The notes under the pieces are model-generated. The model searched no databases, was not told where the DNA came from, and saw only the letters and a list, made by a program, of their open reading frames with translations. From the NCBI GenBank assembly GCA_009599575.1, contig VWND01000008.1, positions 1 to 64,000 on the forward strand: a stretch of DNA of 64,000 bases, in the 5' to 3' direction. Below, in pieces: positions 1,376 to 54,450 of the stretch. The position numbers and the translations under genes are program-made. The stretch's first letter is position 1. Each line of letters opens with the position of its first letter. Source of the DNA: Blumeriella jaapii. Lineage: Eukaryota; Ascomycota; Leotiomycetes; Helotiales; Drepanopezizaceae.

Positions 1376-1810
1376 CCGTACGGCTTATCTAGGGTCGGAT
1401 CACAACCGATTATACCCGTTTGCAAAACCGGGGTATACACCGATTATAATCGGTTTTAAAACCGGGTATACACCGATTATAATCGGTTTCAAAACCGAGT
1501 ATACACCGATTATAATCGGTTTTAAAAAACCGATTGTACACCGATTATTACCGGTTTTTTTAATCGATTACAATCGGTTTTAAAAAAACCGATTGTATAC
1601 CGATTATTACCGGTTTTAATCGATTACAATCGGTTTTAAAACCGATTATAATCGGTGTATACCCGGTTTTTAAAACCGGGTATATCGGTTGCTAATCGGT
1701 GTTAACACCGAAGTGGCGCGGTTTACTCTCACATCGATGTGACGATTTTACACCGAGTATAATCGGTGTTATCGAGTATAATCGGTGTATAATCGGTGTT
1801 AACATCAAAA
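1376..1810 (+). repeat. Left-end palindrome array of TRE-A
   Basis: Some 435 bp made of repeated palindromes of the type ACCGATTATAATCGGT joined by TTTTAAAA or GTATAC linkers, with variants ACCGAGTATAATCGGT and AACACCG/CGGTGTT. The outermost 8 bases CCGTACGG are themselves a perfect palindrome. The same array occupies the same end of every TRE copy (for example 31400-31789, 32378-32765, 46178-46580, 51450-51835). Such dense subterminal repeats often serve as transposase binding sites; that role is inference here. Confidence 0.85.
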
Positions 1811-1954
1811 CAAAACTATAAACTTATAAATTTATTATATTAAATCGATATTTAATATTAACCAAACCCTCGAAAATATATTAAAAAAACTTATATTAAA
1901 TTATTAATACGTTTATTAAACACTATTTTTTAATATTAATTTTACCAATACTAA

Positions 1955-2650
1955 CACTATCACCAATACTACCATTATCTCGTCGCCGACACTTCGCCGC
2001 CACTATTTCACTGTCGCCACCACCACACTATTACTAACACCACCATCATCAAACATCATCACCACCACCTCGCCGCCACCATCTTACTGTCGCCACTATT
2101 AACACTACCACCAACACCACCACTACCAACACCATCACCACCACACCACTACCACTTCGTCGCCACCACCTCGTCGCCACCACCTTATTGTCGCCAACAC
2201 CAAACCACCACCACCAACACCATTATTAACACCATCACCAACACCACCACTAACACTATTACCAATACCACTACCACCAACACCACCACCACCTCGCCGC
2301 CACCACTTCACTGTCGCCACCATCAAACACCACCACCAACACCACCACTACCAACACCACCCACCATTATTACCACCACCACCACCTCGCTGCCACCATT
2401 TCGCTGCCACCACCATTACTACTACCATTATTACCATCACTACCACCATTACCACTATTACCACTATTACTATCACTACCACCATTACCACCACTACCAT
2501 TACTACCACTATTACCATCACTACCATTATTACCACTACTACCACTATTACCACCATCACCACCATTATTATCACTACCACTATTATCTCGCTGCCACCA
2601 TCTCGCTGCCCACCATCTCGCTTGCTGCTATCACTATCACTTCGCTGCTA
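1955..2650. repeat. CCA-rich arm of TRE-A
   Basis: Low-complexity DNA of AYY triplets (ACC, ACT, ATT, ATC) mixed with blocks containing CGCTGCCACCA or CGTCGCCACCA. The pattern is what (ACC)n becomes after C-to-T transitions. It is the reverse-complement partner of the arm at 2756-3925. Open frames here (runs of V/M or H/T/P) are repeat translations and I do not call them genes. Confidence 0.9.
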
Positions 2651-2653
2651 CTA

Positions 2654-2755
2654 TTGTAACTACCCAGCTTATTCGGCTGTTCGGCTATTCGGCTGTTCGG
2701 GCTGTTCGGCTTTTCGTTATTTTTCTAGCAAAATAGTATTAGCGAAATAATAATA
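2654..2755 (+). repeat. Conserved centre module of TRE-A
   Basis: Spacer between the two complementary arms. It holds tandem 8-mers GTTCGGCT/ATTCGGCT, then TTTTCGTTATTTTTCTAGC and a near-duplicate pair AGCAAAATA / AGCGAAATA. The module lies in the same orientation relative to the ends in all five TRE copies (others at about 24321-24418 minus, 33060-33155 plus, 45286-45380 minus, 52501-52600 plus). It is far better conserved than the arms. Confidence 0.85.
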
Positions 2756-3925
2756 ATAATAGTAGTGGTAGTGGTGATAATGGTAGTGGTGGTGGTAGTG
2801 GTGGTAGTAATGGTAATGGTGATAGTGGTGGTAATAATGGTAGTAGTAATAGTGGTGGTAGTGGTGATAGTGATGGTAGTGGTGGTAGTGGTGATCGTGG
2901 TGGTAGTGGTTGGTAATGATGGTAATGGTGGTAGTAGTGGTAGTGGTGGTAATGTGTGGTCGTGGTGGTAATAGTGGTAGTAGTGGTAGTAGTAGTGGTA
3001 GTGGTGGTGATGGTGGTGGTGATGGTGGTGGCAGCGAGGTGGTGGCAGCGAGATGGTGGCAGCGAAATAGTGGCAGCGAGATGATAGTGGTAATGATAAT
3101 AGTGGTGGTAATAATGATAATGGTAGTAATGGTGATAGTGATAGTAGTAGTGGTAATGGTGGTAATAGTGGTAATGGTGGTAGTGGTGGTAATGGTAGTA
3201 GTGGTGGTAATGGTAGTAGTGATGGTAATAGTGGTAGTAATAGTGGTGGTGGCAGCGAAGTGGTGGCAGCGAGATGATGGCAGCGAGATAATGGTAGTAG
3301 TGATAATAGTGGTGGTGATAATGGTAATGGTGGTAATGATCGTAATGGTAGTAATAGTAGTAATAATGGTAGTGGTGGTAGTGGTGATAGTGGTGGTAAT
3401 GGTGGTAGTGGTGGTAATAGTGGTAATGATGGTAATAGTGGTAGTAGTAGTGGTGGTGGCAGCGAAGTGGTGGCAGCGAGGTGGTGGCAGCGAGATGGTG
3501 GCAACGAGGTGGTAGCAGCGAGGTGGTGGCAGCGAGGTGGTGGCAGCGAAGTGGTGGCAGCGAGGTGGTGGCAGCGAGGTGGTGGCAACGAGGTGGTGGC
3601 GACAGCGAGGTGGTGGCGACGAAGTGGTAGCGACGAAGTGGTAGCAGCGAGATAATGATGGTATTAGTAATAGTGTTAGTTGTGATGTTGGTGGTGGCGA
3701 CAGCGAGATGATGGCGACGAAGTGATGGCGACGAGGTGATGGTAGTATTGATAATAGTGGTGTTAATAGTAGTGTTGATGGTGGTGTTGGTGATAGTGTT
3801 GGTGGTGGTGTTGGTATTAGTGTTGGTATTGGCGACAGTGAAGTGGTGGCGACGAGGTGGTGGCGACGAGGTGGTGATGGTGTTAATAATGGTAGTGTTG
3901 ATAGTGGTATTAATAAAAGCGTTGA
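2756..3925. repeat. TGG-rich arm with 14-bp minisatellite, TRE-A
   Basis: RRT triplets (GGT, AGT, AAT, GAT) alternate with tandem copies of a 14-bp unit GAGGTGGTGGCAGC, clearest at 3455-3640. Variants are GAAGTGGTGGCAGC and GAAATGGTGGCAGC, so the differences are G-to-A transitions. Because 14 is not a multiple of 3, three units give a 14-residue protein repeat in every frame, which explains the long but meaningless open frames on both strands. Confidence 0.9.
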
Positions 3926-4148
3926 TAAAGGGTAATAACTAATTCGTATAAGATTTGTATTTTTCTCGAAGCTCTGAATTATTACACAATCTATTGTATT
4001 TATTAATCTTTAGTAACTCTAAGATTAATTTTCATTTAATCGCGTATTAATTCTGATTATACTCGGAGTTAATTTTACGCCAAGTGTTAACTCGGATTTG
4101 ACTCGGTGTTGAATCGGTTGTAATCCCACCCACAGGCGCCCCTAAGTA

Positions 4149-22959: not shown

Positions 22960-24774
22960 TACTTAGGGGCGCCTGTGGATAGGATTACAACCGATTTAAC
23001 ACCGAATCAAATCCGAGTTAATATTTAGCGTAAAATTAACTCCGAGTATAATCAGAGTTAACACGCGATTAATTGAAAATTAATCTTAGTATTATTAAAA
23101 ATTAATAGGTACGATAAGTTGTATAAAAATTCAAAGCTTCGAGAAAAATACAAATCTTATACGAATCTGTTATTACACTTTATCAACGCTTTTATTAACA
23201 CTACCTCGCCGCCACCACCTCGTCGCCACAACCACCACCACCACCACCATTATTATTACCACCACCACCTCGCTGCCACCACTTCGCTGCCACCACCTCG
23301 CTGCTATCATCTCGCTGCCATCACCTCGCTGCCACCATCTCGCTGCCACCACTTCGTCGCCACCACTTCGTCGCCACCATCATCACTACCACTACCACCA
23401 CTACCACCACTACTACTACTACTATTACCACTACCATTATTACTACTACTACTATCATTTTGCTGCTACCACCTCGCTGCCACCACCTTGCTGCCACCAC
23501 CACCGTCGCCACCACTACCACTATCATCATCACTACTATTACTACCATTACCACCACTACTACTACTACTATTACTACTACTATTATTACTACTACTACT
23601 ATCATTTTGCTGCCACCACCTCGCTGCTACCATCTCGCCGCCACCACCTCGTCGCCACTACCACCACTACTACTACCATCATTACCACCACTACTACCAC
23701 TACCACCACTATTACTACCACTATTTCGCTGCCACCACTTCGCTGTGCCACCCACCACCTCGCTGCCACCACCTCGCTGCCACCATCTCGTCGCCACCAC
23801 CACCACCACCACCACCATCATTACCATCACTACCACCACCACCACCATTACTACCACCATTTCGCTGCCACCACCTCGCTGCCACCACTTCGCTGCTACC
23901 ACCTCGTCGCTACTATCATCACTACGACTACTATTACTACCACCACCATTATTACTACTATCACTTGATCGCCACTACCATTACCATTATTACCATCACT
24001 ACCACTATTACTATTATTACTATTATCACCACCATTATTACTACTACTATTATTATTTTGCTGCCACCATCTCGCTGCCACCATCTCGTCGCCATCACTA
24101 TTACCACCACCACTATCACTACCATTACCACCACCACCATTACTATTACTACCACCATCTCGTCGCTACCATTATTACTACCACCACCTCGCTGCCACCA
24201 CCTCGCTACCACTATTTCGCTGCTATTATCTCGCTGCTACCACCTCGATGCCACTATTTCGTCGCTATCACCACCACTATTACTATTATTATCACTATTA
24301 TTACTTCGCTGCTATTATTATTATTTCGCTAATACTATTTTGCTAGAAAAAACAACGAAAAGCCGAACAGCCGAACAGCCGAATAGCCGAACAGCCGAAT
24401 AAACTAAATAATTACAATAGTGGCAGAAAAGTGGTGATGATAATAATAGTAGTAGTGGTAATGGTGATAGCGATAAAATGGTGGCAGCGAGATGGTGGCA
24501 GCGAAATAATAGCAGCAAAATAATGATAGTAATAATAATAATGGTAGTGATAATGGTAATAGTGGTAATAATGGTAGTGGTGGTAGTAGTAATAGTGGTG
24601 ATAATAATAGTAATAATAATAGTGATAATAGTAGCGACGAGGTGGTGGCAGCGAAATAGTAGCAGCGAAATGGTGGCAGCGAGATGGTAGCAGCGAAATA
24701 ATGGTAGCGAGATAGTGGCAGCGAGATGGTAGTAGTAATAATAATAGCGACGAGATAATGGTAGTAATGGTAAT

Positions 24775-24983
24775 TGTTGGTATCACATAAGGGGGGGGGG
24801 TTGTGTGTATACACAGGGGTTGAGATATTGCAATAACTGGGGTTGTATTGCGAAAGAGATCTAAGGAGTAAACTAGCTATCGCACGGGTATATGTAGGTA
24901 GGGCTGCACGCTTGCAGCCTACCGTGGTTACGTGGGCTGATCATATGATTGTGCGCATGATCAGCCACCACCATATACCCATA
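24775..24983 (-). repeat. 3' LTR of the copia element
   Basis: Coding-strand ends are TATGGGTATATGG (mutated TG start) and ATACCAACA. It includes a run of ten G on the plus strand (24791-24800), a 7-bp-arm hairpin GGCTGCA-CGCT-TGCAGCC (24902-24919) and a larger hairpin with arms GGCTGATCATR/CATGATCAGCC (24935-24966). Confidence 0.93.
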
Positions 24984-25072
24984 TTGGCAACTCTTTTATA
25001 AAGATTAACCATAGCTAGCTAGTCTTCTTCTAATTATATATATAATCGTCTTTTTTTCTACTCGTCTCCTTT

Positions 25073-28000
25073 CTACTGTTTCTCTACCCAACCTTCTATT
25101 ACGTCAATTTCGTTTTTGTTAATAAAGGTAGTAAAAGCTTTATTAGGGTTTGCTTTCGTTATAGCATCCGCCGGATTGTCTTTTCCGTTAATCCATTTCA
25201 CTTCTGATAACTTTTTTTTTTTATAACTCTGGCGGAAAGCTATAATATCGATTATAAAGCGTTTCTTTTTTATTATTTTTAATTTAATTAAACACTTATA
25301 CAAAAAGTATAAATCCGTGCAAACTATTATTGAAATATCGGGGAGATTAAGCTTTTAAGTGATTATACGTAAAGTTGTGGCGATGCAAATAGCGATATCT
25401 ATTCCAAAAACCATTTCGTATATTTCTGAAGCTAATACGCTTCGTATAACTCTCTGACACTTGATTAAGCTCGCTGCAATAAGATTCCCTTTTATTTTAA
25501 ATAAATTGTTATTAAACTGCATTTTATTAGCTAAAAAAACTTCGTAGCCAATTTGCGAACTGCAATCTTTGTTATTAGCAAATAAGCCGTCAACAAATAC
25601 AAATAGCTTTGCAATAGAAAGGTCGATTTGTATAAATAAAAAGCTTCGATTTTGATTATTTATTATTTATCGAATGCGCTTGTTAATTATATCGATATTT
25701 AACTGGATAAGATTTTCCATTTATATTTGTGCAGTTATTAAAAGGTCGAAAATAACTTCGGGTTAATATAGACTAGTAATATAAGCTCTTCGAACGCGTT
25801 GGGCGAAATAATTGTTCTTATCGTTTTTAATTAGCTCGAGTTTTTTTGCTTAGTTCTTTTTTGTTTTAAAAAAAATAAAGCTATTTGACTTATATAGGGC
25901 TTCTCCGTTGAAAATCAAAACGTTGCTTTTACTCAATATGTCCTTGGGCTTTGCATTGAAATCTGCTGCTTGCAATTCGGCTTTTTTCAAAGCTGAAAAA
26001 GCCTTATCTGCTAGCTACAACGTATCGTCTGTTTGCATTCCTACGATTGCGAAAGCAGAAATAGTAGAAATAAGTAAGCAAAGGTCGTATATTAACGTAG
26101 TTATATAAAGCTTGTTTTTATGATGCTTGTAATACGTATTCTACCAATACGTGTCTGCTTTTGTTATATCGTACAAAAGCTTATAAATTAGCAGAATCGA
26201 GCTTTCTGGATAGCTAAATCGTAGCTTTTTAAAAAGGTGCGCTAGAATCTGTTTTTCTAGAAACCTATTAGCGCTTATATAAGCTTGAGTAATATCCCTC
26301 AAATGCAATATAGCGTTGCAAATATATTCGAAGATTAAAGCGAAAGCTATAATTAATTTTTGGCTGTTTCGCTAAATAATGAATAATTAAGTGAAAATAT
26401 CGTATTTTTTATTATCGTTGTAAGCTTAAATTACTAATTTAGATTTCTCGAATAATATAGTTGTATTTTTGCTCTTGATTTTATTTATAATTCGTAAATT
26501 AAAAATTCGGCCGTAGTAAAAAGTGGGATTGTATTATACAATTTTAAAAACGCTTTTCTCGATCAAACCTTTTATTTCCATTTTTTTAAAAGCTTCGAAA
26601 GGCTCGCCGGAGATTATAATAACACCTTTTTGGCGTAGCTTAACTAAGCATTTAGCATTTGCCTTTTTTTTATGTATAAGATAGCTTGTAAGGTAGCTTG
26701 CAATATAATCGTCGAAAAAATTAGTTTTGGTAGTTTTTATAAAAAACAATATATTAATATTATTTTTTTTTATATTTTTTTTTTCAAGCTCGTAAAACTC
26801 GTCAGTTATAAATAATTGCTGCTGTTGCTTTTTAATTTTTCGGGAAAAAACGCGTATTTTGGTGCTTTGGCGAATTTATATAATTTTTGGAAATTGAATT
26901 AATACAATCAGTTTTGCAACAGGCTGTATAATTGCAGCTGGTGCAATAGTCGCAGCTGATGGTGCAATTTTTTTCTTTTTAACAACTGGTTTAGCAAAGA
27001 GGGTTTTATCGTCCAATTCGCTATAATAAGGCTTAATTGACGTAATTCGGAAATCTGAAGTTTTATCGTTGATTTAAACTTTGCAGGTATTGCTATTTTT
27101 TAAAATAAGCTTATAAAGGCCTGACCAACTTTTCTTTTTTTTATATACGCGTACGTCTGATTGCAGAGAAAGATTAAATGTTTCTAAAGTATTCGGGCCA
27201 TTTTTAGTACGTAGGGCTTCCGAAACTTTGCGTTCGGCCTGGATTCGCCGAATTTTTTAAGTTGCAAAACGTAATGCATCGCGTTTTTTCGTTACAAAAG
27301 CAGAAAAAGCGTCTGTTTCTGATAGACGGGGGTATGCGTTATATACTAGTAAAATGGGTATAATACCGCCTGGATTTGCAATATCGTTTATAGCTTTAAA
27401 AGCTATTTTCAGAATTATATGTTTATCGAGGCTTTTATTTTTTAATTGCTTTTTCAGAATATTATAAATTCGTTTAAAAAAGCCGTGGTAACGTTTTATT
27501 TTGCCAATATTATTATAAGCTTCGATTGGGACGATTTTAATATTATATTTTATAAAGCGTGCTTATTAACGAAACTTCTGAAAAATTAGATTAGTTTCTA
27601 AATCAACGACAATTACGTCGGATGGATTTAAATAAAAATCGATTTAATACAGCCGAAATATATTTTATACGTGTTTTGCAATTATATTTTTTAAAAAACT
27701 ATTAAAGCTGTAAATGATCGCTGAATCTACGATATAAAAAACTGAGTCGCCGTTAATATATATAATATTTATAATTATCGAATAATTGAATTTATAATTG
27801 TTTTTTAATAAAATTTTAAATCGGCGAGAAGCTTGCTCGTATAATTAGCATTGGAAATAATATTTGGCAATTTTTTCCAGAATAGCAATTTCGAATTTCT
27901 GTTCTGCTCGTTCCAGAATAGCTGCAAAGCGCTGTACAAAAAAGTGTTTTTATCGTTTATAAATCTGACGTAATTCGAGTTTTGTAAAATAGCAAAATAA

Positions 28001-28290
28001 GGTTTTTTAGGTATTAAGCAGCATAAATAAATATTTCTATTTCCGAACTATTGGTACGCCAAAGCTATTTTTTTGTATAAATATATTATACAAATTATCG
28101 AAATAAATATAAAAAGCATTTATATCTTTTAGATAAATCAAAAAAAAAGTATTAATATTAACGATATAAAATTTAATTTTGCTAATGGATGTTACAACAA
28201 AAACTGTTTTTTGGATATTTGCAGAAATTATTTCAAAGTTAATCGTATTTTTTTTTCGAAAAAAGGTCAAAAGCAAGCTGGGATAGCAAT
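25073..28290 (-). pseudogene. Copia pol: integrase, reverse transcriptase, RNase H
   Basis: One nearly continuous minus-strand frame. 28037-28276 holds FYIVNINTFFLIYLKDINAF and VPIVRK, the linker region before integrase in fungal copia polyproteins. Integrase covers about 26900-28000 with KRYHGFFKRIYNILKK near 27480. Reverse transcriptase about 25750-26760: GVIIISGEPFEAF..GLIEKSVFKIV at 26534-26640, QAYISANR near 26270, catalytic box QTDD at 26024-26035. RNase H about 25073-25640: VDGLFANNKDCSSQIGYEVFL, then VKWINGKDNPADAITK and stop at 25073. About eight internal stops, mostly at expected Trp or Gln positions, make it a pseudogene. No frameshift was noticed. Confidence 0.88.
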
Positions 28291-28989
28291 CTTTTTAAAA
28301 GCTTTAAACTGAAATATATTATTTAAAAACTTGCCAGCTGCATCTGAATCTAAAAGGAATTCTTGGAATTTATATAAAAAGTATTTCGAGCCCGAAATAT
28401 ACGTTTCCAATAGGGGTTTATCGTTCTTTTAAATAAAAAAGTTTATAAGATTAAGCTTTGTAAAAGCGTGGTAGGCAGATCGTTCTTATAAAATAATTAA
28501 AACTTCGATTTCTATTATTTTACCAGCTTTTGTATAAAAAATTTGAATAAAAAAATTGTCGTTTTTGATACTTATTCCTATCGTAATAGCCGTTTTCGGC
28601 GCTCTATATATTATATTAATCAGAAGGAAAAAAAAGGGTAAAAGAGGCAGGAGTGTTTTCCAAGCCTTCAACGTTTTCGTATTGCGTAAGGAAACTTATA
28701 TATTATTGCATAATCGAAAAAGCTTTAATAAAATAAGCTTTGTTAGCGCTGTATTCGTCGTATGCTTTTTTACGTTTTTTTGGAAAGTGTTTTGTTAACC
28801 AGCAGTTTATTTTTTTGCATATCTAATATTTTTTAGATTAGGAAAAACTGTTAGAATTGCTTAAATAATCTTTTCGGCTTCGGAATTCTTTTTTTTTTTT
28901 TTTGAATAAGCTTCTGCCTTGGTAATTTTTACCGAAACGTTTTTCGCGACTTCTGCTTTTATAGATTCGGTTTATATAATAGCTTTTAT

Positions 28990-29830
28990 TTTGATTTGCA
29001 AAAGTTTAAAAAAGCTGGGAGGTGATAAAAGTTAATTTTCGCAATTGAACTTTTCGCTTAATGGTTCCAATTGCATTACGCAGCTGGGATGCGACGCTTT
29101 TATACGTATTTGCAGGGTTTATTAAAGCGTGTTTGCACTTTTGTACGCTATTGCAAACGCTAATAACCTGGTTTCGCAAATAGTTGTCTGATTCGTACTT
29201 TTTAATAAAAGCTTGTTGACACAGCGCTAGTTTTTCGAATATAATCTTCAAGCATTTCAAGCGTAATTTGCCAAGGTTTTCAGCCTGTATTTCTTTTTGT
29301 ATATAATTGTACGCTATGCTGTCAGGTAGAACTTGCGATTTTTAGTCGTTTCGAAATAAGCTTTTATAAAACTAATTATTACGCTAAACTGGTAGTTTTT
29401 ACGAATTATAGTATTGCAATAATAAGCGTTAGCTGTTTTTTTTAAGCATATGCGGGAAGGCCTTTGCGTATAGGCTTTCAGAAAGATTGCATAAATCGCA
29501 CAAATTGTAAAACTTTTTCAGTTTTACGTGGAATATATCCTATATTCCACTTCCGTATTTTATTTTATTTTTATAATATATTTTGCTAAGGTTCAGAACT
29601 AGCTGTACAAAATCGTTTTTTTTGTAAGGTCTGACTTCTGCTTTTTCGTCGTCGCTTTTATCAAAAGGGTCAGGATCGTTATTTTTAACTTTAGGAATTT
29701 TCGTTTTGTTTTTGAAATTGTATAACGTTTTGCCTCGTGTGAAAAATGTATTACGTACGCCATTATCGCGTACGCTATTATCGCTACTTTTGGTAAGTAT
29801 TTTAGTTGTTCGTGACGCATATACGTTGGC
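28990..29830 (-). pseudogene. Copia gag (partly degenerate)
   Basis: Upstream of pol on the same strand. The piece 29006-29260 (LCQQAFIKKYESDN, LRNQVISVCNSVQ, LINPANTYKSVASQLRNAI) matches the helical capsid-type gag of fungal copia elements. A second open piece at 29599-29820 is basic and Lys-rich. I could not recognise a zinc knuckle. The boundary with pol and the true start are not resolvable; the region 29830-30772 up to the 5' LTR holds leader sequence and more degenerate gag. Confidence 0.6.
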
Positions 29831-30772
29831 TAGGCTGTTTCTTGCTTTTTAAAATCCACTTTTATTATTTTCGATGTAAACATTTCTATTATTATAATAA
29901 TTTTCGTTCCCAGCAACAGATTTAAATAGAAGGGGTAAGGGGGTTTTTTCTTTTTACTTTTGAAAGTTATTTTGTAGCTAAATCTTTTAATTTTTATTTG
30001 TTATCGTTTTTTATTTGCAAAAGTAAAAAAGATAGGTTTATTTTTCTGGAATATCGCTGCCAAACGATCTGCATAGCTATTATCTCGGTTTTTAATAAAT
30101 GGAGCCATATTAATTTTATAAATAAACAAATGGTTGTAAAAATTGCGTTTTAAAAAAGCGTATGCAATATTAAATAAATCGGCGTTTTAATTAGCAAAAT
30201 TTTTTTGAAAAAGCTTTTATAAGCCCTTTTTTTAAACGTATTTATATTCTGCCTTGTATCGCTTTAGAAAAAGATAGATTTATTTATTTACGGCAGAAGC
30301 GGTTTTAAAAAATAGCTGATTTTGGTTTAAATTGCTTTAGCCAAAAGTCGGTATCGATTTCGAAATTTAAATCGAATAAAAGATTTCGAATGGGATAGAA
30401 AGATATTTTCGATATTTTGGCTGCTTTTGCTTGTAATCAAAAGGGTTGCAAGGTAGATTGTAAAATTGCAAGATCGAATTAGATTAGTTATTGCTGTTTT
30501 TGATGCGCAGGCTGCAGGCTCGGGCTTGGCGCAAATAAGTGGGTTTTTGTTAATTTCGGTTTTGTTTTGGTTGCGCAGGCTAGGCGCGAGCGTGTAAGAC
30601 GCGTACAGTCAAAAGGTCACTTTTTAGTATCTGATTTTAACTATTCCGAAAAAGTCGTCGATTTTAGCGTAGCTCCAAATGCAAGCAGAAGTCGCTTTTT
30701 GCACCGTTTTGCTACCTTTTTTTAGTAAACCTAGCTGCTTTGTATTTAACAGTAAAATCAACCATTGATCAG

Positions 30773-30982
30773 TGTTGGTATTATATAAAGGGGGGGGGTT
30801 TGTGTATATACACAGGGGTTGAGATATTGCAATAACTGGGGTTGTATTGCGAAAAAGATTTAAGGAGTAAACTAGCTATCGCACGGGTATGTGTAGGTAG
30901 GGCTGCACGCTTGCAGCCTACCGTGGTCACGTGGGCTGATCATGTGATTATGCGCATGATCAGCCACCACCATATACCCACA
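30773..30982 (-). repeat. 5' LTR of the copia element
   Basis: Coding-strand start TGTGGGTATATGG, end ATACCAACA. It carries CACGTG at 30928-30933, the GGCTGCA-CGCT-TGCAGCC hairpin at 30901-30918 and an 11-bp-arm hairpin GGCTGATCATG/CATGATCAGCC at 30934-30965. The 3' LTR has the mutated forms of several of these positions, so this copy is closer to the ancestral sequence. Confidence 0.93.
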
Positions 30983-31791
30983 GTAATAATGGTGGTGATA
31001 ATAGTAGTGATGGTGGTGGTAGTAGTGGTGATGGCGACGAGATGGTGGCAGCAAGGTGGTAGCAGCGAGATGATGGTAGCGAAGTGATGGTAGCGAAATG
31101 GTGGCAGCGAAGTGGTGATAGTAATAATGGTAGCGACGAGATGGTGGTAGTAATGGTAGTGGTGGTGGTGGTAATGGTAGTGGTGGTGGCAGCGAAGTGA
31201 TGGCAGCGAGGTGATGGCAGCGAAATGGTGGCAGCGAGGTGGTGGCAGCGAGATGGTGGCAGCGAGGTGGTGGCAGCGAGGTGGTGGCAGCGAAAATATT
31301 ATTAAATATAATATTAAATAAACGTAGTTTAATATAAAATTTTTAATTTAAATTCGAAAAGTTTGATATATATTAAATATCGATTTAAATTAGTTGTATA
31401 AATTTGTTTCGGTGTTAACACCGAATATAATCGGTATTAATACCGATTATAATCGGTAATACCGATTATATTCGGTGTTAAATCGTTATATCGATATAAA
31501 AGTAAACCGCGCCACTTCGGTATTAACACCGATTAGCAACCGATTATACCCGGTTTTAAAACCGATTATATACCGATTATAATCGGTTTTAAAACCGATT
31601 ATAATCGATTATAATCGAATTAAAATCGGTTATAATCGGTGTATAATCGATTATAATCGATGTATAATCGGTTTTGAAACCGATTATAATCGGTGTATAT
31701 CCGGTTTTAAAACCGATTATAATCGGTGTATATCCGGTTTTGCAACCGGGTATAATCGGTTGTAATCCGACCCTAGATAAGCCGTACGGTA

Positions 31792-32377: not shown

Positions 32378-34300
32378 CCGTACGGCTTATCTAGGGTCGG
32401 ATCACAACCGATTATACCCGGTTGCAAAACCGGGTATACACCGATTATAATCGGTTTTAAAACCGAGTATATACCGATTGTAATCGGTTTCAAAACCGAT
32501 TATATATCGGTTATAATCGATTATACACCGATTATACCCGGTTTTAATTCGATTATAATCGATTATAATCGGTTTTTTAAAACCGATTATAATCGGTATA
32601 AAATCGGTTTTAAAACCGAGTATAATCGGTTGCTAATCGGTGTCAATACCGAAGTGGCGCGGTTTGCTTTTATATCGATATAACGATTTAACACCGAGTA
32701 TAATCGGTATTACCGATTATAATCGGTATTAATACCGATTATATTCGGTGTTAACACCGAAACAAATTTATACAACTAATTTAAATCGATATTTAATATA
32801 TACCAAACCTTTCGAATTTAAATTTAAAATCTTATATTAAACTACGTTTATTTAATACTACATTTAATAATATTTTCGCTGCCACCATCTCGCTGCCACC
32901 ACCTCGCTGCCACCACCTCGCTGCCACCACCTCGCTGCCACCACCTCGTCGCCACCACCATCACCACCACCACCACCACCACCACCATTACCACTATTAT
33001 CACCACCACCATTACCACCACTACCACCATTATTATCACCACCACCTCCCTGCCACCATTGTAACTATTCAGCTTATTCGGCTGTTCGGCTATTCGGCTG
33101 TTCGGCTGTTCGGCTTTTCGTTATTTTTTCTAGCAAAATAGTATTAGCGAAATAATAATAATAGCAGCGAAGTAATAGCAGCGAAAAAATAAATATAATA
33201 AACTTTTATATTTTTTTGAAAATACAAATAAAAGTGGTAGTGATAGTAACAGTAGTGATGGTGGTGGCGACGAGGTGGTGGCAGCGAGGTGATGGCAGCG
33301 AGGTGGTGGCAGCAAAATAATAGTAGTAGTAGTAATAATAGTAATAATAATAATAGTGGTAGTAATGATGATAAGGATAATAATAATAGTAATAATAGTG
33401 GTAATAATAGTGGCGACGAAATAATAGCGACGAGGTGGTGGCGACGAGGTGATGGCAGCGAGATAATAGTAGCAAAATGATAGTAATAGTAGTGATAATA
33501 GTAATAATAATAGTAGTGGTGATAATAATGGTAATGGTGGTAATGGTGGTAGTAATGATAGTGGTGGTAATAATAGTGGTGATAATGGTAGCGACGAGGT
33601 GGTGGCGACGAGGTGGTGGCGACGAAGTGGTAGCGACGAGGTGGTGATAGTAGTAGTGATAATGGTAATAATGATAATAGTGGTGATAATGGTGGTAATA
33701 ATAGTAATAATAGTAATAGTAGTAGTGATGATGGTAGCGACGAGGTGATGATAGTAATAGTAATAGTGGTGGTAATGATAGTAGTCGTAATGATGGTAGT
33801 AACGACGAGATGATAGTAGTGATTATGATGGTGGTGGTGGTGGTGGTGGTAGTAGTGGCGACGAGGTGGCGGCGACGAAATAATAGTGGTGGTGGTGGTA
33901 GTAGTGTTGGTGGTATTGGTGGTGGTGTTAATAATAATGTTGATAGTATTGGTAATGGTGGCGACGAGATGGCGGCGACGAGGTGGTAATGGTGATAATG
34001 GCGACGAGGTGGCGGCGACGAAGTGATGGTGGTGGTGGCAGCGAAATGGTGGCAGCGAAGTTATTAATAAAAGCGTTAATAAAAGGTAATAATTAATTCG
34101 TATAAGATTTGTATTTTTCTCGAAACTTTGAATTATTACACAACCTATCGTATTTATTAATCTTTAATAACTTTAAGATTAATTTTCATTTAATCGCGTA
34201 TTAACTCTGATTATACTCGGAGTTAATTTTACGCCAAGTGTTAACTCGGATTTGACTCGGTGTTAAATCGGTTGTAATCCCACCCACAGGCGCCCCTAAG
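32378..34300 (+). mobile_element. TRE-C, triplet-repeat element, copy C
   Basis: Shortest copy, 1923 bp, between TA (32376-32377) and TA (34301-34302). Palindrome array 32378-32765, a CCA-rich arm of only about 180 bp (32878-33058), centre 33060-33155, an AT-rich oddity at 33187-33232, TGG-rich arm to about 34085, right end to 34300. The empty site is readable in Gypsy-3 copy 2 (minus strand near 17320), where AAACGAAAATATCGAAG runs through without interruption and with a single TA. Confidence 0.92.
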
Positions 34301-44169: not shown

Positions 44170-46580
44170 CTTAGGGGCGCCTATGGATGGAATTACAACC
44201 GATTCAACACCGAATCAAATCCGAGTTAATACTTAGCGTAAAATTAAACTCCGAGTATAATCAGAATTAATACGCGATTAAATAAAAATTAATCTTAAAA
44301 TTATTAAAAATTAATAAATACAATAGATTATGTAATAATTCAAAGCTTCGAGAAAAATACAAATCTTATACGAATTAGTTATTACCTTTTATCAACGCTT
44401 TTATTAACACCACCACCAACAACCACCACCACCACCTCGTCGCCACCACCTCGCCGCCACCACCTCACTGTCGCCAACACCAATACTAACACCACTATCA
44501 ACACCACTATCAACACCATCACTACCAACACCACCACCACCTCGTCGCCACCACCTCGCTGCCACCACCTCGCTGCCACCACTTCGCTGTCGCTGTCATC
44601 ACCTCGCTGCCACCACCTCGCTGCCACCACCTCGTCGCCACCACCACTACCACCACCACCACTACCACCACCACTACCACCATTACCACTATTACTACCT
44701 ATCACCTCGCTGCCACCACCTTGTCGCCACCACCACCATTACTATTACCACCACTACCACCACAAAATACACCACCACCACCACTATTATCACCACTACC
44801 ACCACCACCTCGCTGCCACCACCTCGCTGCCACCACCTCGCTGCCACCACTTCGCTGCCACCCACTTCGCTGCCACCACCTCGCTGCCACCACCTCGCTG
44901 CCACCACCATCATCACCACCACCACCACCACCACCACTACCCACTTAATACGACCACCACTACCAGCACTACCACCACTACCACCATTAAAAACCATTAC
45001 CACCACTACCACCACTACCACCACTACCACCACGACCACCACTACCACCACTACAACCACCACTACACCACTAACCCTCACGACCACCAATTATTACCAC
45101 TACCACCACTATCCCCCACCACTACCACCAACTACCACCACCTACCACCATTACCACCACTACCATCACTACCACCATTATTACCACTACCACCACTATC
45201 TGCCCCACTACCACCATTACCACTACTACCACCACTACCACCACACCACCATTATCACCACTACCACTACTATTATTATTATTATTTCGCTAATACTATT
45301 TTGCTAGAAAAATAACGAAAAGCCGAACAGCCGAACAGCCGAATAGCCGAACAGCCGAATAAGCTGGGTAGTTACAATGGTAGCAGCGAGGTGATAGCAG
45401 CGAGGTGGTGGCAGCGAGGTGGTGGCAGCGAGATAATGATGGTAATAATGATAATAGTGGTGATGGTGGTAGTGGTGGTAGTGGTGGTAATGATAGTAGT
45501 GGTGGTAGTGGTGGTAGTAGTGGTAATGGTGGTAATAGTGGTAGTGATGGTAATAATGGTAGTGATGGTAATAATGGTAGTAATGGTAGTGGTGGGTGGT
45601 GGTGGTGGTGGTGGTGGCAGCGAGGGTGGTGGCAGCGAGGGTGGTGGCAGCGAAGTGGTGGGCAGCGAGGTGGTGGCAGCGAGGTGGTGGCAGCGAGGTG
45701 GTGGTGGTAGTGGTGATAATGGTGATGGTGGTGGTAGTGGTGGTAGTGGTGGTAATAGTAATGGTGGTGGTGGCGACGAGGTGGTGGCAGCGAGGTGGTG
45801 GGTGGTAGTGGTGATAATGGTGGTGATGGTGGTGGTAGTGGTGGTAGTGGTGGTAATAGTAATGGTGGTGGTGGTGGTGGCGACGAGGTGGTGGCAGCGA
45901 GGGTGATAGCAGCGAGGTGGTGGCAGCGAGTGGAGGGCGGGTGGGGAGGGGTGGTGGCAGCGAGGTGGTGGCAGCGAGGTGGTGGCAGCGAGGTGGTGGC
46001 AGCGAGGTGGTCGCAGCGAGGTGATGGCAGCGAAATGATGGCAGCGAAATAGTGTTAGCGAAAATATTATTTAGTGTAGTATTAAATAAACGTGGTTTAA
46101 TATAAGATTTTTAATTTAAATTCGAAAAGTTTGATATATATTAAATATCGAGTTAATTTAGTTGTATAAATTTGTTTCGGTGTTAACACCGAGTATAATC
46201 GGTGTTAACACCGAGTATAATCGGTATTAATACCGATTATATTCGGTACTACCGATTATATTCGGTATTAAATCGTCATATCGATGTAAAAGTAAACCGC
46301 GCCATTTCGGTGTTAACACCGATTAGCAACCGATTATACTCGGTTTTAAAACCGATTATACACCGATTATAATCGGTTATAAAACCGATTATAATCGATT
46401 ATAACCGAAATTAAAACCGGTTATAATCGGTGTATAATCGATTATAATCGGTGTATAATCGGTTTTGAAACCGATTACAATCGGTGTATACCCGGTTTTA
46501 AAACCGATTATAATCGGTGTATACCCCGTTTTGCAACCGGGTATAATCGGTTGTGATCCGACCCTAGATAAGCCGTACGG
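44170..46580 (-). mobile_element. TRE-D, triplet-repeat element, copy D
   Basis: 2411 bp between TA (44168-44169) and TA (46581-46582), minus orientation. Right end 44170-44395, CCA-rich arm 44400-45285, centre 45286-45380, TGG-rich arm 45381-46065, palindrome array about 46178-46580. The empty site is readable in the other Gypsy-2 copies (59175-59190 and minus strand near 12290), where CGTATTAACGTA runs straight into the integrase sequence. Its arms keep the most GC of all copies, so it may be the least mutated. Confidence 0.92.
45935..45951 (+). other. G-quadruplex motif
   Basis: GGGCGGGTGGGGAGGGG: four runs of at least three G with one-base loops, inside the TGG-rich arm of TRE-D. Shorter GGT/GGC runs around it add further potential. 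Confidence 0.8.
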
Positions 46581-47615
46581 TAACGTTTTTTACGTCGCTT
46601 CGTAAACTAGGCCAGAAATACTTTTTTTCGACCAGTTTTAGCGTTCGCCGAAAACTTTAATAACCGGCGGTCGGATCGTCGTAATTAATTTTTAATATTT
46701 CGCTTTTAATAGCGCTTTTATTCGGAATATACGTACGTTTTTTATAACGTAATAATTTATCTTAGCCTATACGCTAATATTTCTCGAATTCGGCTCGATT
46801 ATTTTGCGAAGCCGATTCGTACGTTTTTTATAATACAAAAAAATCAAATCTTTGCAATTCAAAAATAATCTTATAAATCGGTTTTGCTAGCTCGTTATTA
46901 GCCGTTTCGGATTGTAACAACACAACGGCTACGTTTCGTGGTATATATTATTTGCAATTAATAATATTAGTAAAAAACAATCCGGCGAAAAAACCTTTTA
47001 TTTGGCTTTTTTCCGCTTGCTTTTTATTTTTTGATTCCGTTAACAAAAGCTTCGAATACTTATCGGCGCGAAATGGTTTATACTCCGATTTTAAACGTAT
47101 TTTTATTGCGAAAAATATCTTAAAATTTTTTAAATAAGTTAATTTCCGCTTACGATACAACGTAAGCAGCTGCTCGTTATTTTTTTTTAAATCTTTTTTT
47201 AAATCTGGCCGGCGGAAAAAAAACCATTCGCCGGATTAAAAACTTTTATTTTATATTCGATTGCAAAATCGTATTCAGCTAGCTCGTCGGCCCATTTCGC
47301 TAAGCGTCCGTTTAAACGTTTTTTTTTCGTAAAAAAGTATTTTAAATTATAATAATTTATACGTATAATAATAACGTTAAAAGCGCTACGTAAATATTAG
47401 CTTTATTGTTTAAAAACGTAAACTATAGCTATTAGCTTAGCGTCGTAAACTTCGTATTTTTATTTTATAAAAAAAAAGCTTTTTCAAATAATACGCGATA
47501 AAATGCTAACGTGCCTTCGTATTCTTTCCGAATAATTAAAATAATATTCCGCTTATAACGAATTTCGAAGCGTTTGTTTCGATTTGGATTTTCAATCGAA
47601 AATCGAAATAGCGTA

Positions 47616-48974
47616 ATAGTGGGCTGCCTTCCCACATTTATTCTGCGGGCACTCGAATAATGTGGGGGAAAGCAAGTGTCCCATTGCATCCAAGTGTCCC
47701 ATCTCAGTTCATGATTTTTTACTATCGTATTTTATATTAAAACACTACCAACGCCAGATATTTAATTATACTAAATTAAATTATAATAAAAGCAAGCAGT
47801 TATTTTCAGATTTCGAATTAAAAAGTTAAATTTTATTAATAAAAACCAATTTAAACAAATGTTTTATACGCATTTTCAATTTTTTTTTCGCTTTTTCGCT
47901 TTCAGAAAGCCTATTTACATTTGTTTGCAATTAAAATATTTTATATAATAATTCAGATTAACCTTTTTAATCGGTTATAAGCTATTCGATAATTATTAAA
48001 GCTTTATTAAGCTCGCATTTTATTATATAGCAAGATTTTCGGCTAAAAAAATGCAATTTATTATTTTTAATACGATTTTTTTTTGTTTTACAGCTTTATT
48101 GCTTTTACAATTTAAAATCCAAGGCTCGTAAGCAGCTTCTTTTACTTATTATACGCTTAAGCAAAAGCTTCTCGTAAAACTAACGGTTTTCTTTTACCTT
48201 TTGCCTTTTGTTTATTATCTTCCGAATATAAATATTATACCGATATTTAAAAGCTGAAAAGCAAATGTAAAATAGCTAGAAAGCCAAAAAAAAATAAGCT
48301 TTATTTAGTTTTAATAAAAGTATATTATATTTGTACGATTCGTAGCCGTTTAATTAATACAATTTCTGATTGGAAATGCGTATGAAAACGATTTAAATTA
48401 CTTTCACTTAATCAAAAATGAATGTTCCGACGTAGAATTTAATATAATGTCTATAAATTCTATTCGAATGCAAGCTGAACTTATTTTTTCTCAGTTTATT
48501 ATAATTAAAGAACTGGCGTTGGAAATATTTTAATTTAAAATACGATTATAAAAAATAACAAATTAAAACAAAATATTTCGTTTTAAAACTTTTAATTAAT
48601 AAAAATGAAAGTTTTAACTTATAATTTAATAATAGCTTTCTGTTTTTATTATTTATCAACTTATTATAATTTAATATCTGGCGTTGATAGTGTTTTAATA
48701 CAAAATGCGATAATAAAAAATAAAAAATTCAACGAAAATATATAATTTAATAACTTTTAATTAATAAAAATGAAATTTTTAATTTAAAATCTAAAAATAG
48801 CTTCCTGCTTTTATTACTTTTCAATTTGGCGTAATTAAATAATAATGTTTTATTATAAAATGCGATCGTCAAAAATCATGAATTGAGATGGGACACTTGG
48901 ATGCAGTGGGACACTTGCTTTCCCCCACATTATTCGAGTGCCCGCAGAATAAATGTGGGAAGGCAGCCCACTAT
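47616..48974. mobile_element. 1.36-kb TIR element (MITE-like), TA target
   Basis: Both ends read ATAGTGGGCTGCCTTCCCAC inward and stay nearly identical for about 100 bp, with weaker similarity to about 130 bp. TA flanks it (47614-47615 and 48975-48976). The empty site is in Gypsy-2 copy 4 (minus strand of about 56354-56370), where GCGTAGAATCGG is continuous. The right half has a roughly 150-165-bp tandem repeat. No transposase frame; probably a non-autonomous Tc1/mariner-type element. Its TIRs are GC-rich and almost free of RIP-type change, so it is young or escaped RIP. Confidence 0.9.
48514..48974. repeat. Tandem subterminal repeats of the TIR element
   Basis: Three units begin at 48514, 48679 and 48827, each opening with TTGGCG or CTGGCGTTG followed by an AAAATRCGAT motif and AATTAATAAAAATGAAA. 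Spacing is 165 and 148 bp. An inverted partial unit lies near 47740-47790 (CGCCAGATATTTAATTA). Confidence 0.6.
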
Positions 48975-50429
48975 TAGAATCGGTGCTTAGCAAAACTTTT
49001 TTTTTAAAAATAAAAAAGCGATCTTCGCTTCGAATAAAAAACGAAAAGGGCCCGATATTTTTCTTTATTGCATCTTTTTTAAAAAATCTGTAATAAATCG
49101 GCAAAGCTTAGCGTAATTCTTAATAAAACGTTTGTAAAAGTTGGTAAAACCCAAAAACACTTAAATATTTCGCTACGTAATAAAAAAAGGCCATTTCCGA
49201 ATACTATCTACTTTTTTTAAATCTATTTTAATTTCCGTAAAAATAACAACGAAGCTTAGAAACTCAACCGTATTCGTATCGAAAGCATATTTTTTCAGAT
49301 TTTCATAAAATTTATTAATACGGAATCTTTCGAAAACCTTTTTTACCGCGTTTGTATAATCGTCGGGGTTTTCGAAAAATATTAAAATATCGTCGAAGTA
49401 AATTATACACGTAATATTTATTAAAACGATTAAAGCTTAATTAATATACGCTTAGAAAATTTCTAATGCGTTCGAAAGGCCGAAAAGTAATACGCAGTAT
49501 TCGAAATGTCCGTAACGAATGCGAAACGCAGTTTTTTATTTTTTTATTTTTTTATTCGAAAGCGATAGTACGTTTAAATAAAATCTAGCTTAATAAAAAT
49601 TTTAGCTTTTTTCAAACGATTTAAAGTTTCGCTTATAAAAAATAAAAAAAATCGATTTTTAACCGTAATTGCGTTTAAACTTTTATAATCCACGCATAAT
49701 CGTAAACTTTCGTTTTTTTTCGGTATAAATATTATTAATACGCCGGCAAAGCTAATATATTTTTTTATCCAGCTTTTTTCTAAGCTCGAATCGAAATATC
49801 CGCGCAATTCGGTGAATTTAAATTCCGACAAAAAGTAAATTGGTTTTTAAAAAAGATTTTTTTTTTCGCGAAATCTATTCGATATTTTATAAAATAATAA
49901 AAAGCTAAAGTAACCGCGGCGGTATCGTTAAACACGTCGGCGTAATCGTCGTATTTAAAAAGTAATTAATGCTGTTTTTTAATAGCTTTTTTTAAAACGA
50001 TACAAAACGCTTACTTCCTTTTAGATTTCTTTTTAAAACGTTTGATTATAACGAAATTAAATTGTAAGCGTTCGACTGAATATCGCTACGATTTAGCTCG
50101 AAAGCTTATAACGGAATCGATATTTCGCAACCAAAGGAATTCTAAAATAAATAAAACTTTTGGAATATTTATATCGCAAACTACGAAATCGTTTTGTATT
50201 TTTTTAATTGTTTTATAATTATTAATAGCGCGAATGGGTTACGTATGCGTGCCGTAAATAATTACTTTTTTTTTTAATTGTAAATAAATTAATATGTTTT
50301 TAAATTGGTTTTTATTTATATTTAATTAATAACTTTTGAATTACGCAGTTTTTCTTCGCGCCGCAATCGATAAAAGCTCGTTTCGTACGAGTTTTCCTTT
50401 TGGCTTTTTTAATTTCGACTGAAATTATC

Positions 50430-53400
50430 ATTTTTTGCTTTTTTTTTTCGTTCGATTTTATTAGCAGCGACGAAATTAAAATCGAACGGAAGCTTTTTCC
50501 GAATTTTTAAATTTGTTAGCTTCGAAGCAATTTAAAATTATATATTCTTTTTTATTGCATTTATAATATTCGATTTTTAAACAATTAGCTATGCGATGCC
50601 TTGCCTTTTAACAGCGATTGCATTTCGAAAAGTAAAAAAAATCGTTAAAAGTTTTAAAATTCCAAGGAATTTTGTTAGAATTGTCGTTTTTTGGCTTTCG
50701 TTTTTTTTTTATAATATATTTTCGAATCGAGAACGGTATATATTTGTTTTAGCTTTTAAATTTTAATCGTAAATATAAATCTTTTTCTTTTTTTTTTTTT
50801 TTTTGCGTTCGTTTCGTCGTTTATTATTTTTCGTTTCGTCGCTAATGATTTTATTAGCATTTTCGATACGACGAGCGATTAATATTAATTTTTCGTACGA
50901 GCTTATAATTATAGTATTGCTTCGTTTAATAATTTCTTTTCGAAAAATAAATCGGAGTTTTACGAAAAGTATTTTTTTTTAATCGTATCGTTTGTTATTT
51001 GCAATTGCTATTCGAGATTATTCAAATAAATAACGAAATCGTTAATTAATTTATGTTTTTTTTGCTTCGCTTTATCGTATAAATTCGAAGCCGCGATTTC
51101 TCGATTTTCCGCATTTATTAAAAAATCCAATATCTATTTTTTAAAATCGTTTTATATAATTCGAATATTCGTAAAACGTCGTTCGTATCCGGTTTATTTT
51201 TTTTCCATTTTATCGTCGAAAGCTAAAACACAAGCGTTAATTTTCTTTTAATTAGTACAAAATATAATTTTTTTATTTTGGCGGAAACTTCGCTTTATAC
51301 GCCGAATAAAAAATTAAGCTTTTTTAATATTTTTCTTTCGATATATTAAAAAATCTTTTATTTTTAATGCTTTTCGGCTCGAATTCGCTATGTTTTTTAC
51401 AAAAGATATAATATGCTCAAAAAAAATGCTAAATCGTTTCCAATAAGTACCGTACGGCTTATCTAGGGTCGGATCACAACCGATTATACCCGGTTGCAAA
51501 ACCGGGTATATATCGATTATAATCGGTTTTAAAACCGGGTATATACCGATTATAATCGGTTTTAAAACCGATTATACACCGATTATAATCGATTATACAC
51601 CGATTATAACCGATTTTAATTCGATTATAATCGATTATAATCGGTTTAAAAACCGATTATAATCGGTATATAATCGGTTTTAAAACCGGGTATAATCGGT
51701 TGCTAATCGGTGTTAATACCGAAATGGCGCGGTTTACTTTTACATCGATGTAACGATTTAACATCGAATATAATCGGTATTACCGATTATAATGGGTGTT
51801 AATACCGATTATATTCGGTGTTAATACCGAAACAAATCTATACAACTAATTTAAATCGATATTTAATATATACCAAACCTTTCGAATTTAAATTAAAAAT
51901 CTTATATTAAACTACGTTTATTTAATATTATATTTAATAATATTTTCGCTAACATTACTTCGCTGCCATTATCTCGCTGCCATCACCTCGCTGCCACCAC
52001 CTCGCTGCCACCATCTCGCTGCCATCATTTCGTCGCTACTACCATCACCACCACCACTATCACCACCATCTCGCTGCCACCACCTCGCTGCCACCACCTC
52101 GCTGCCACCACCTCGCTGCCACCACCTCGCTGCCACCATCTCGCTGCCACCATCTCGTCGCTACCACTACCACCACCACCACTATTACCACCACTTCGCT
52201 GCCACCACTTCGCTGCCACCATTTTACTGCTACCATTTCGCTGCCACCATTTCGTCGCTATCACTATTATTATTACCATTATTACTATCATTACTATTAT
52301 TATCACTATTATTATTACCACCATTTCGTCGCTACTATTATTACTACTACCACTTCGCTGCCACCATCTTGCTGCTATTATCTCGCTGCTATTATTTCGC
52401 TGCCACCATTTCGCTGCCACCACCTCGTCGCCACCATCACCATTACTATTATTACCACCATTATCACCATTATTATTATCACTACCTTTCTGCCACTATT
52501 ATAATTATTCAGCTTATTCGACTGTTCGGCTATTCGGCTGTTCGGCTGTTCGGCTTTTCGTTGTTTTTTTTAGCAAAATAGTATTAGCGAAATAATAATA
52601 ATAGCAGCGAAATAATAGTAGTAATAATAGTAGTGGTAGTGGTAATAGTGATAGCGACGAAATAATAATAGCGAGATGGTGGCAGCGAAGTGGTAATAGT
52701 AATAGTGGTAGCGACGAGATAGTGGTAGTAGTAGTGATGATGATGGTGGTAATGGTAATGATGGTGATAATGATGATGGTAGTGGCGACGAAATGGTGGC
52801 AGCGAGGTGATGGTAGCAAAATGATAATAGTAATAGTAATAATGGTGATAATAATAATAGTGGTGATAATAGTGGTAATAATAGTAATGGTAGTAATGGT
52901 AGTGGTAATGATGGTGGTGATGATAGTAATAATGGCGACGAAATAGTAGCAGCGAGATGGTAGCAGCAAAATAATAATAATACTAGTGATAGTAATAGTA
53001 ATAATAATAGTAATAGTAATAGTGGTAGTAATAATAATAATAGTAATGGTAATAGCGACCAAGTGATAGTAGTAATAGTGGTGGTGGTGATAGTAATAGT
53101 AGTCGTGGTAGTGGTAGTAGCGACGAGGTGGTGGCAGCGAGGTGGTGGCAGCGAAATGGTGGCAGCGAAGTGGTGGCAGCGAAATAGTGGTAGCGAGGTG
53201 GTGGCAGCGAAGTGGTGGCAGCGAAATGGTGGCAGCGAAGTGGTGGCAGCGAGGTGGTGGCAGCGAAGTGGTGGTAGCGAGGTGGTGGTGGCAGCGAAAT
53301 GATAATGGTAATGATGGTGGTAGTGGTAATAGCGACGAGATGGTGGTATTGGTAATGATAGTGGGATGGTATTAGTAATAATGTTAGTAGTAGCGATAAT

Positions 53401-54450
53401 AAGGTGGTGACGGCGAAGTGTCGGCGACGAGGTGATGGTGTTAGTGGTGATGGTAGTAATAGTGTTGGTTATGGGTGTTGGTGGTGGCGACAGCGAGGTG
53501 GTGGCGACGAGGTGGTGGCGACGAGATGGTAGTAGTATTAATAATAATGGTGTTAGTAATAATGTTAATAAAAGCGTTGATAAAAGGTAATAACTAATTC
53601 GTATAAGATTTGTATTTTTCTCGAAACTTTGAATTATTACACAACTTATTGTATTTATTAATCTTTAATAATTTTAAGATTAATTTTTATTTAATCGCGT
53701 GTTAATTTTGATTATACTCGGAATTAATTTTACGCCAAGTGTTAACTCGGATTTGACTCGGTGTTGAATCGGTTGTAATCCCACCCATAAGCGCCCCTAA
53801 GTATTGTTATCGTAATGCTTCGAAAATATCTTATAATAATCGCCGGCTTAAATTATTTTCTGTTTTTTTTTTAATTAAAGCGGTGTTAAAAAATATAAAA
53901 ACCTTTTTTTCGATATTTTCGAAAGCGTTAAGTTTTTATTAAAATTATTTAATTTTTTTTCGGAATTCGTTTCGGCGTTTTCTGGCTTTTTCGAGTTTTT
54001 TAATTGTTTCGTAAACTTTTTTTTTAATCTTTTTCTGATTTATTTTAATTCGTATTTTTTTTACTTTTTTACGTTTATCGTTTTCTTTTTGTTCGGCGCG
54101 GATTCGTTTATTAATTAAATAAATTAAAATCTTAGTAAAAGGTTTTTTCGAATCGCTTTAAGCGTGGCCTTTTTTAATGATTTTTTAAATAAAAAGAATT
54201 GAAAAGTCGTCGCGCTTTAATAATAAAATATTTTCGACTTTTAATAAAGCTGGTAACGTTAAGGGAAACGATGGTACGGGGTCTTTTTAAGCAGCCGAAA
54301 GCGCTAGGTTTTTTTAAATAGCTGGAAATGCTTGTTCGCTGCGAATGCGAAAAGCTATAATATCGATAATAACGATATAAATATAATAATATAATAAAAA
54401 GTTGTTCTAATAATATCGAACTGCCGTTCCGATAAATTAAAAAATTAAAA
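50430..54450 (-). pseudogene. Gypsy-2 copy 3 gag, split by TRE-E
   Basis: Minus-strand gag in two parts (50430-51447 and 53804-54450). The zinc-knuckle region is near 50515-50640, the gag C-terminal helix region near 50800-51000, and the Lys/Glu-rich coiled segment near 53930-54130. Plus-strand Phe-rich open frames over this region are shadows of the Lys-rich coding strand. Confidence 0.7.
51450..53801 (+). mobile_element. TRE-E, triplet-repeat element, copy E
   Basis: 2352 bp between TA (51448-51449) and TA (53802-53803). Palindrome array 51450-51835, CCA-rich arm about 51950-52500, centre 52501-52600, TGG-rich arm about 52610-53590 with a clean 14-bp minisatellite at 53130-53300, right end to 53801. 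Empty site: Gypsy-2 copy 2 at 62680-62705, where GTTTCTAATAAATATTATTATCG is continuous (quoted bases here shortened in sense: TAATAAATA then TTATTATCG). Confidence 0.92.

Follow-up and report, generated by a model that had tools for sequence, protein, structure and literature searches.

The window analysed here is the first 64 kb (64,000 nucleotides, forward strand) of contig C8 (VWND01000008.1) of the Blumeriella jaapii genome assembly (GCA_009599575.1), and it holds five copies of a repeated element, TRE, that share both of their ends. The left end, CCGTACGGCTTATCTAGGGTCGGAT, lies at 1376 (+), 31789 (−), 32378 (+), 46580 (−), and 51450 (+), and the right end, ...GCGCCCCTAAG, lies at 4146, 22962, 34300, 44170, and 53801, respectively. 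A first-pass annotation of the same DNA had reported five copies with common termini between TA flanks, and we find both statements to be true at these positions (TA on either side in 5/5 window copies).

Copy 1 (1376 to 4146, plus strand) consists of a left module with a CCGATTATAATCGG array (about 1376 to 1950), a CCA arm (about 1960 to 2640), a centre (about 2645 to 2757), a TGG arm (about 2758 to 3936), and a right module (about 3937 to 4146), and its empty paralogous site, found in L039, is gap-free. Copy 2 (22962 to 31789, minus strand, left end at 31789) also has a gap-free empty site (L035), and one of its arms is split by a long terminal repeat (LTR) retroelement at 24775 to 30982 that is not part of TRE. 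The LTRs of this nested element (24775 to 24983 and 30773 to 30982; 209 and 210 bp) are identical in 198 of 210 alignment columns, and its target duplication is GTAAT; the coordinates first proposed for copy 2 are right, and its 8.8-kb length is owed solely to the LTR element. Copy 3 (32378 to 34300, plus strand, centre at about 33069) has a gap-free empty site in L013. For the two remaining copies the paralogous site lies in the window itself, at 59333 to 59040 and gapped at the junction for copy 4 (44170 to 46580, minus strand, left end at 46580), and at 8952 to 8656 and gap-free for copy 5 (51450 to 53801, plus strand, centre at about 52517).

The source assembly of the window comprises 47.4 Mb in 91 contigs. 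PF11951, a family of transcription factors specific to fungi, matches it at 10 places (E up to 1e-10; best 6e-78) and none of 14 named control genomes, which identifies the host as a fungus; within the fungi, a place in Pezizomycotina is probable. Searching this assembly with the end patterns, allowing up to 3 mismatches for the left end, returned 75 left ends (66 of them exact) and 59 right ends, against 0 matches for each of the reversed patterns, indicating that the ends are not chance occurrences. The nearest right end on the same strand lies within 3.6 kb for 46 of the 75 left ends, at 3.6 to 9 kb for 1, and beyond 9 kb for 15, with none within 40 kb for the remaining 13. From these we extracted 48 left/right pairings, on which the counts below are based; they represent 47 distinct elements, one pairing (L015; 3,578 bp) being a mispairing of an outer copy's left end with a nested copy's right end. 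The start CCGTACGG is present in 48/48 pairings and the finish CCCCTAAG in 45/48, and no pairing (0/48) starts with CA or finishes with TG. By eye, the two termini are not inverted repeats of each other over their outermost 20 or so bases, and an inverted match, GGATYACAACCGAT, sits just inside these. CTTA and this motif had been taken to be all that the two ends share, which proved too narrow, as a CCGANT-type motif (N = A, G, or T) is far more frequent than expected close to either end: CCGANT and ANTCGG reach 10.1 and 9.5 in the left 480 bp (about 0.2 in base shuffles) and 0.0 and 4.0, hence a single orientation, in the right 230 bp (about 0.1 in base shuffles).

The target duplication of TRE is 2 bp long. 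TA stands on both sides in 43/48 pairings, and the others show TT/TT (two), AA/AA (one), a TA/TT mismatch (one), and CG/TA (one, at a mispaired end), so that the TA flanking described for the five window copies holds for those five and genome-wide is joined by TT and AA. When the two flanks of each pairing were joined and searched against fetched sequence (three flank pairs being set aside as simple repeats), an uninterrupted paralogous site was found for 37/48 pairings, and in 33 of these 37 empty sites no gap comes within 15 bases of the junction. Of the 37, L028 and the plus copy of L043 carry little weight, as their flanks are repeat-like and match in many places. In addition, one TRE copy (in L037) is inserted in the centre of another. 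Because of the 2-bp duplications and the uninterrupted paralogous sites, the mobility of TRE is demonstrated rather than inferred, and the different flanks and empty sites bear out the earlier proposal that a transposon of this build exists.

With respect to anatomy, the short form starts with a left module of some 480 bp that holds a CCGATTATAATCGG-type array. The CCA arm comes next, then the centre (roughly 100 bp) and the TGG arm, and the right module closes the element with about 210 bp. The centre is present in 47/48 pairings (the exception is L020), and the CCA arm lies on the left-end side in 47/47 pairings that have a centre, as the first-pass annotation had stated with reference to element direction. 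The arms mix triplets with a 14-bp minisatellite unit. We compared them in 43/48 pairings, leaving aside L020, which has no centre, and four that exceed 3 kb; their trimmed lengths are 186 to 1061 bp and 552 to 1213 bp, with a correlation of 0.21. Arms within one element are more alike than arms of different elements (medians of 159 versus 112), and the similarity of an arm to its own partner stays above chance after correction for guanine-cytosine content and length (z of 7.7; 0/5000 permutations), the L033 pair showing one gap in an alignment of about 330 columns. Nevertheless, when each of the 86 arms is matched to the arm most like it, 73 find it on the same side of another element, 6 in their own partner, and 7 elsewhere, so that descent dominates. 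The simplest view of the arms is that they are a by-product of slippage and inverted exchange, and a role in the pairing of TRE ends is possible.

FB is a non-autonomous foldback element with long inverted tandem-repeat arms around a variable middle. TRE likewise has the long inverted arms, internal tandem repeats, and middle domain by which foldback elements are recognised, with the arms internal rather than terminal. The earlier statement that minisatellite arms set TRE apart from foldback elements is too strong, since inverted arms made of tandem repeats are known from Tetris (PMC4079207).

Two left ends with a distant or no near right end led to a long form of the element (L047 and L048). 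These two share an inner region, with 82 to 85% identity in the two longest BLAST pieces, and the centre module has no match in either fetched stretch. A 441-base piece of the inner region occurs at 6 places in the genome, and at each of them a TRE left end lies in the same orientation. Measured end to end, the long copies span 11.6 kb in C51 and 12.3 kb in C62, and 13.5 kb and 13.9 kb in C12 and C16, which carry nested copies of 1.8 kb and 2.6 kb; the long form without known nested copies measures 11.2 to 12.3 kb, of which the inner region makes up 8 kb. Of the long copies in C5 and C76 only the left end was placed, and that in C76 is interrupted. Both outer flanks could be read for 4/6 long copies, with TA/TA in C12 and C51 and TT/TT in C62 and C16; once joined, the flanks of the C12 and C62 copies find uninterrupted counterparts in the window, and the C51 copy is inserted inside another TRE-like arm. 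Across the four with both ends read, the ends and 2-bp duplications are the same as those of the short copies. Two further features of the inner region were observed. A long tandem-repeat-like stretch that is open in several frames lies at about 5350 to 6150 of L048, with counterparts in L047 and L049 to L051. In addition, open stretches lie upstream of the transposase frame described below, on the minus strand at about 7650 to 8940 of L048, with counterparts in other long copies; these gave no Pfam match over cut-off, and they may be the N-terminal part of the transposase or a second gene.

Repeat copies differ from one another almost solely by C/T and G/A transitions, as is expected of repeat-induced point mutation (RIP), and within the inner region transitions outnumber transversions 9 to 36 fold. 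Among the inner regions of L047 to L051, C-to-T differences make up 34 to 40% of comparisons before A, C, or T and 5% before G. L014 and L044 differ by 205 transitions and 1 transversion over about 2.8 kb, with C-to-T at 0/556 before G and at 6 to 19% before other bases; two other pairs show a weaker contrast (3% before G versus 5 to 11%). PMC12543289 reports a general CpA preference. Because L014 and L044 occupy sites with different flanks and differ by 205 transitions to a single transversion, this pair shows transposition followed by RIP-type change.

The inner region holds a gene ruined by RIP-type change, whose broken reading frame runs against the left-to-right direction of the element; in C12 it comprises 800 codons with 31 stops, 28 of which are TAA. 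The read-through protein, P0001, matches 6/6 long copies, so that longer copies with a transposase gene between the same ends, as the first-pass annotation had envisaged, do exist, and every one examined is damaged. Weaker matches in C18, C2, and C78 belong to a related family that is likewise damaged, while a match in C17 (E of 4e-6) and five others with E above 0.009 fall wholly or largely within the low-complexity stretch of the frame. We observe this second damaged family with a related transposase at C18:467976 (L053), C2:987304 (L052), C78:358433 (L055), and C73:1183557.

Two protein searches with single damaged sequences as query gave no match. With a four-row alignment of the in-genome relatives as query, a search that scored 7,995 candidates from a database of 5.8 billion entries returned 1 protein at E up to 1, P0002 (1,050 amino acids, E of 2.4e-25). 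P0001 and P0002 match each other by BLASTP (4e-18) and by hhalign (96.8%), and P0002 as query in turn matches 6/6 long copies (E of 9e-13 to 7e-4) as well as C18, C73, C2, and C78. This homologue is intact and carries the motif D...D-x18-C-x2-C...H-x3-H-x19-E (D616, D699, C718, C721, H1010, H1014, and E1034), in agreement with the motif that PMC12730594 gives for the CACTA/EnSpm-Mirage-Chapaev-Transib (CMCT) clade. The corresponding residues of mouse RAG1 are D600, D708, C727, C730, H937, H942, and E962 (PMC4914335), and the spacing from the second D to the two cysteines (+19 and +22) and from the second H to E (+20) is identical in the two proteins.

We consider it very likely that TRE is a fungal DNA transposon family of the CMCT clade, and that the window copies are short derivatives of a rare, transposase-bearing long form. 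The most plausible placement of TRE is as a new family within this clade. Its transposase probably falls in the same broad group as the enzyme that rearranges antibody genes, and on this reading the window copies are non-autonomous derivatives of foldback type that were probably moved in trans.

Several observations weigh against this assignment. The TRE ends are not CA..TG, and their outermost 20 bases are not inverted repeats. P0002 departs from RAG1 in the distance between the two D residues (83 versus 108), in that from C to H (289 versus 207), and in having H-x3-H where RAG1 has H-x4-H. Furthermore, the motif residues are mostly altered in the TRE copies themselves, as RIP would do. With matching spacing, the second D is kept in 1/6 long copies, the second C in 3/6, the first H in 2/6, the second H in 1/6, E in 1/6, and the first C in 0/6, the last being replaced by Tyr in all six long copies and in the three relatives examined. 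The first D is found in 0/5 long copies covering its position and is present only in the relatives. Profile and structure searches do not help the assignment either. A six-frame Pfam scan of the inner region gave no match, and scans of inner-region pieces and read-throughs gave only matches below curated cut-offs, most of those in one set lying in the low-complexity stretch. Against P0002, Pfam returned a single match at 0.22 to an unrelated family, and its Plavaka profile gave none. No match in the genome came from either the Plavaka or the Transposase_21 profile, a weak result, as the controls were likewise empty or, in the one control genome with a Plavaka match, below cut-off; there was no match to solved structures for the transposase, and the predicted model of P0002 is unusable (predicted local distance difference test score of 32.5).

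Comparison with described systems places TRE among relatives that each share part of its build. Duplications of 2 bp, TA or other, are known in the CMCT clade (PMC12730594). Of ESTA, EnSpm-like transposons of Pucciniomycetes with TA duplications, the three families described carry TET/JBP genes, unlike TRE, and further families that lack these genes are said to be in the supplement; triplet arms, a feature of TRE, are unmentioned in the available portion of that source, and the two are compared by description only (PMC12730594). Plavaka of Agaricomycotina, with 2- to 3-bp duplications, is likewise a fungal CMCT member, and PlavakaA makes 2-bp duplications, whereas Plavaka termini (TGT..ACA or CATCA..TGATG) are unlike those of TRE (PMC12730594). 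Plant CACTA/EnSpm elements have a transposase of the same clade, but TRE lacks their CACTA ends and terminal inverted repeat, duplicates 2 rather than 3 bp, and carries giant inverted triplet/minisatellite arms (PMC8978399). Tetris resembles TRE in being non-autonomous, with long inverted tandem-repeat arms and a variable middle, and differs in its terminal inverted repeats, its 8- to 10-bp duplications, and a transposase that was not found (PMC4079207); TRE has internal arms, differing outer ends, a 2-bp duplication, and, as judged from the homologue, a likely transposase. TRE is unusual in that its outermost 20 bases are not inverted repeats, that its ends lack the CA..TG form, and that its arms, built of triplets and a 14-bp minisatellite, resemble each other more within than between elements. 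We recognised no described triplet-arm foldback transposon of fungi in the open-access literature, subscription papers and Repbase being outside the scope of this search. The earlier claim that no described family has this build was nevertheless too strong, given the CMCT motif in the homologue and the known Tetris-type arms.

On the preferred reading, the long form consists of a CCGANT-rich left module, the CCA arm, the 8-kb inner region with its CMCT-type gene, the TGG arm, and lastly a right module holding some four further repeats of CCGANT type. The short form is abundant and includes every window copy; it keeps the ends and arms, and a non-coding centre of about 100 bp takes the place of the inner region. 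Shared ends and duplications suggest that both forms were mobilised by this transposase in a cut-and-paste manner, with the subterminal repeats as its binding sites, the short copies being moved in trans. Template switching at hairpins or gene conversion may pass sequence between the inverted arms, and the family would have been silenced by RIP. A bolder version, which we regard as unlikely, would make TRE a separate CMCT lineage of fungi in which asymmetric arrays of binding sites and giant internal hairpin arms replace terminal inverted repeats, within-element exchange keeps the arms alike, and the hairpin takes part in movement or in recognition by RIP.

Tc1/mariner (pogo/Fot1) is the usual TA-duplicating superfamily in fungi, and its members combine the TA duplication with terminal inverted repeats. 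The short TRE could accordingly be a miniature inverted-repeat transposable element (MITE) of that superfamily, with the transposase of the long copies as mere cargo, and the TA duplication in 43/48 pairings would fit. We judge this improbable, although no genome search aimed at Tc1/mariner transposases was made, as TT and AA duplications occur too (TT also at the long copies in C62 and C16), the outermost bases lack inverted repeats and the inverted match GGATYACAACCGAT appears only further in, and six of six long copies carry a different type of gene, whose homologue has the CMCT motif. Less probable still is a Helitron, Crypton, or Starship-like element without a DDE transposase: the asymmetric ends would suit it, whereas the consistent 2-bp target duplication and the DDE-type motif in P0002 do not, and no such Pfam domain was found in the inner region, a test that mutation damage limits. 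Finally, segmental duplication (which the first-pass annotation had named as what would overturn it) or minisatellite expansion without transposition is ruled out by the same ends lying in different flanks with 2-bp duplications and by the empty sites (37/48), even if the flanks are themselves repeated and the arms are simple-sequence-like.

Apart from the TRE copies, the window contains, at 47614 to 48976, a distinct unit of about 1.36 kb that resembles an element and has 114-bp inverted repeats that are 96.5% identical, and two stretches between TRE copies in which CpG occurs at about 3.4 to 3.5 times expectation.

Taken as a CMCT-clade family, TRE would tie a foldback-type repeat family to long copies that encode its likely transposase, in contrast to Tetris, whose authors could not find the mobilising enzyme (PMC4079207). 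It would also extend the fungal members of the clade beyond the Pucciniomycete and Agaricomycotina cases, its duplications being 2 bp long and mostly TA. With dozens of natural copies that have empty sites, TRE offers material on how inverted minisatellite arms survive and co-evolve under RIP.
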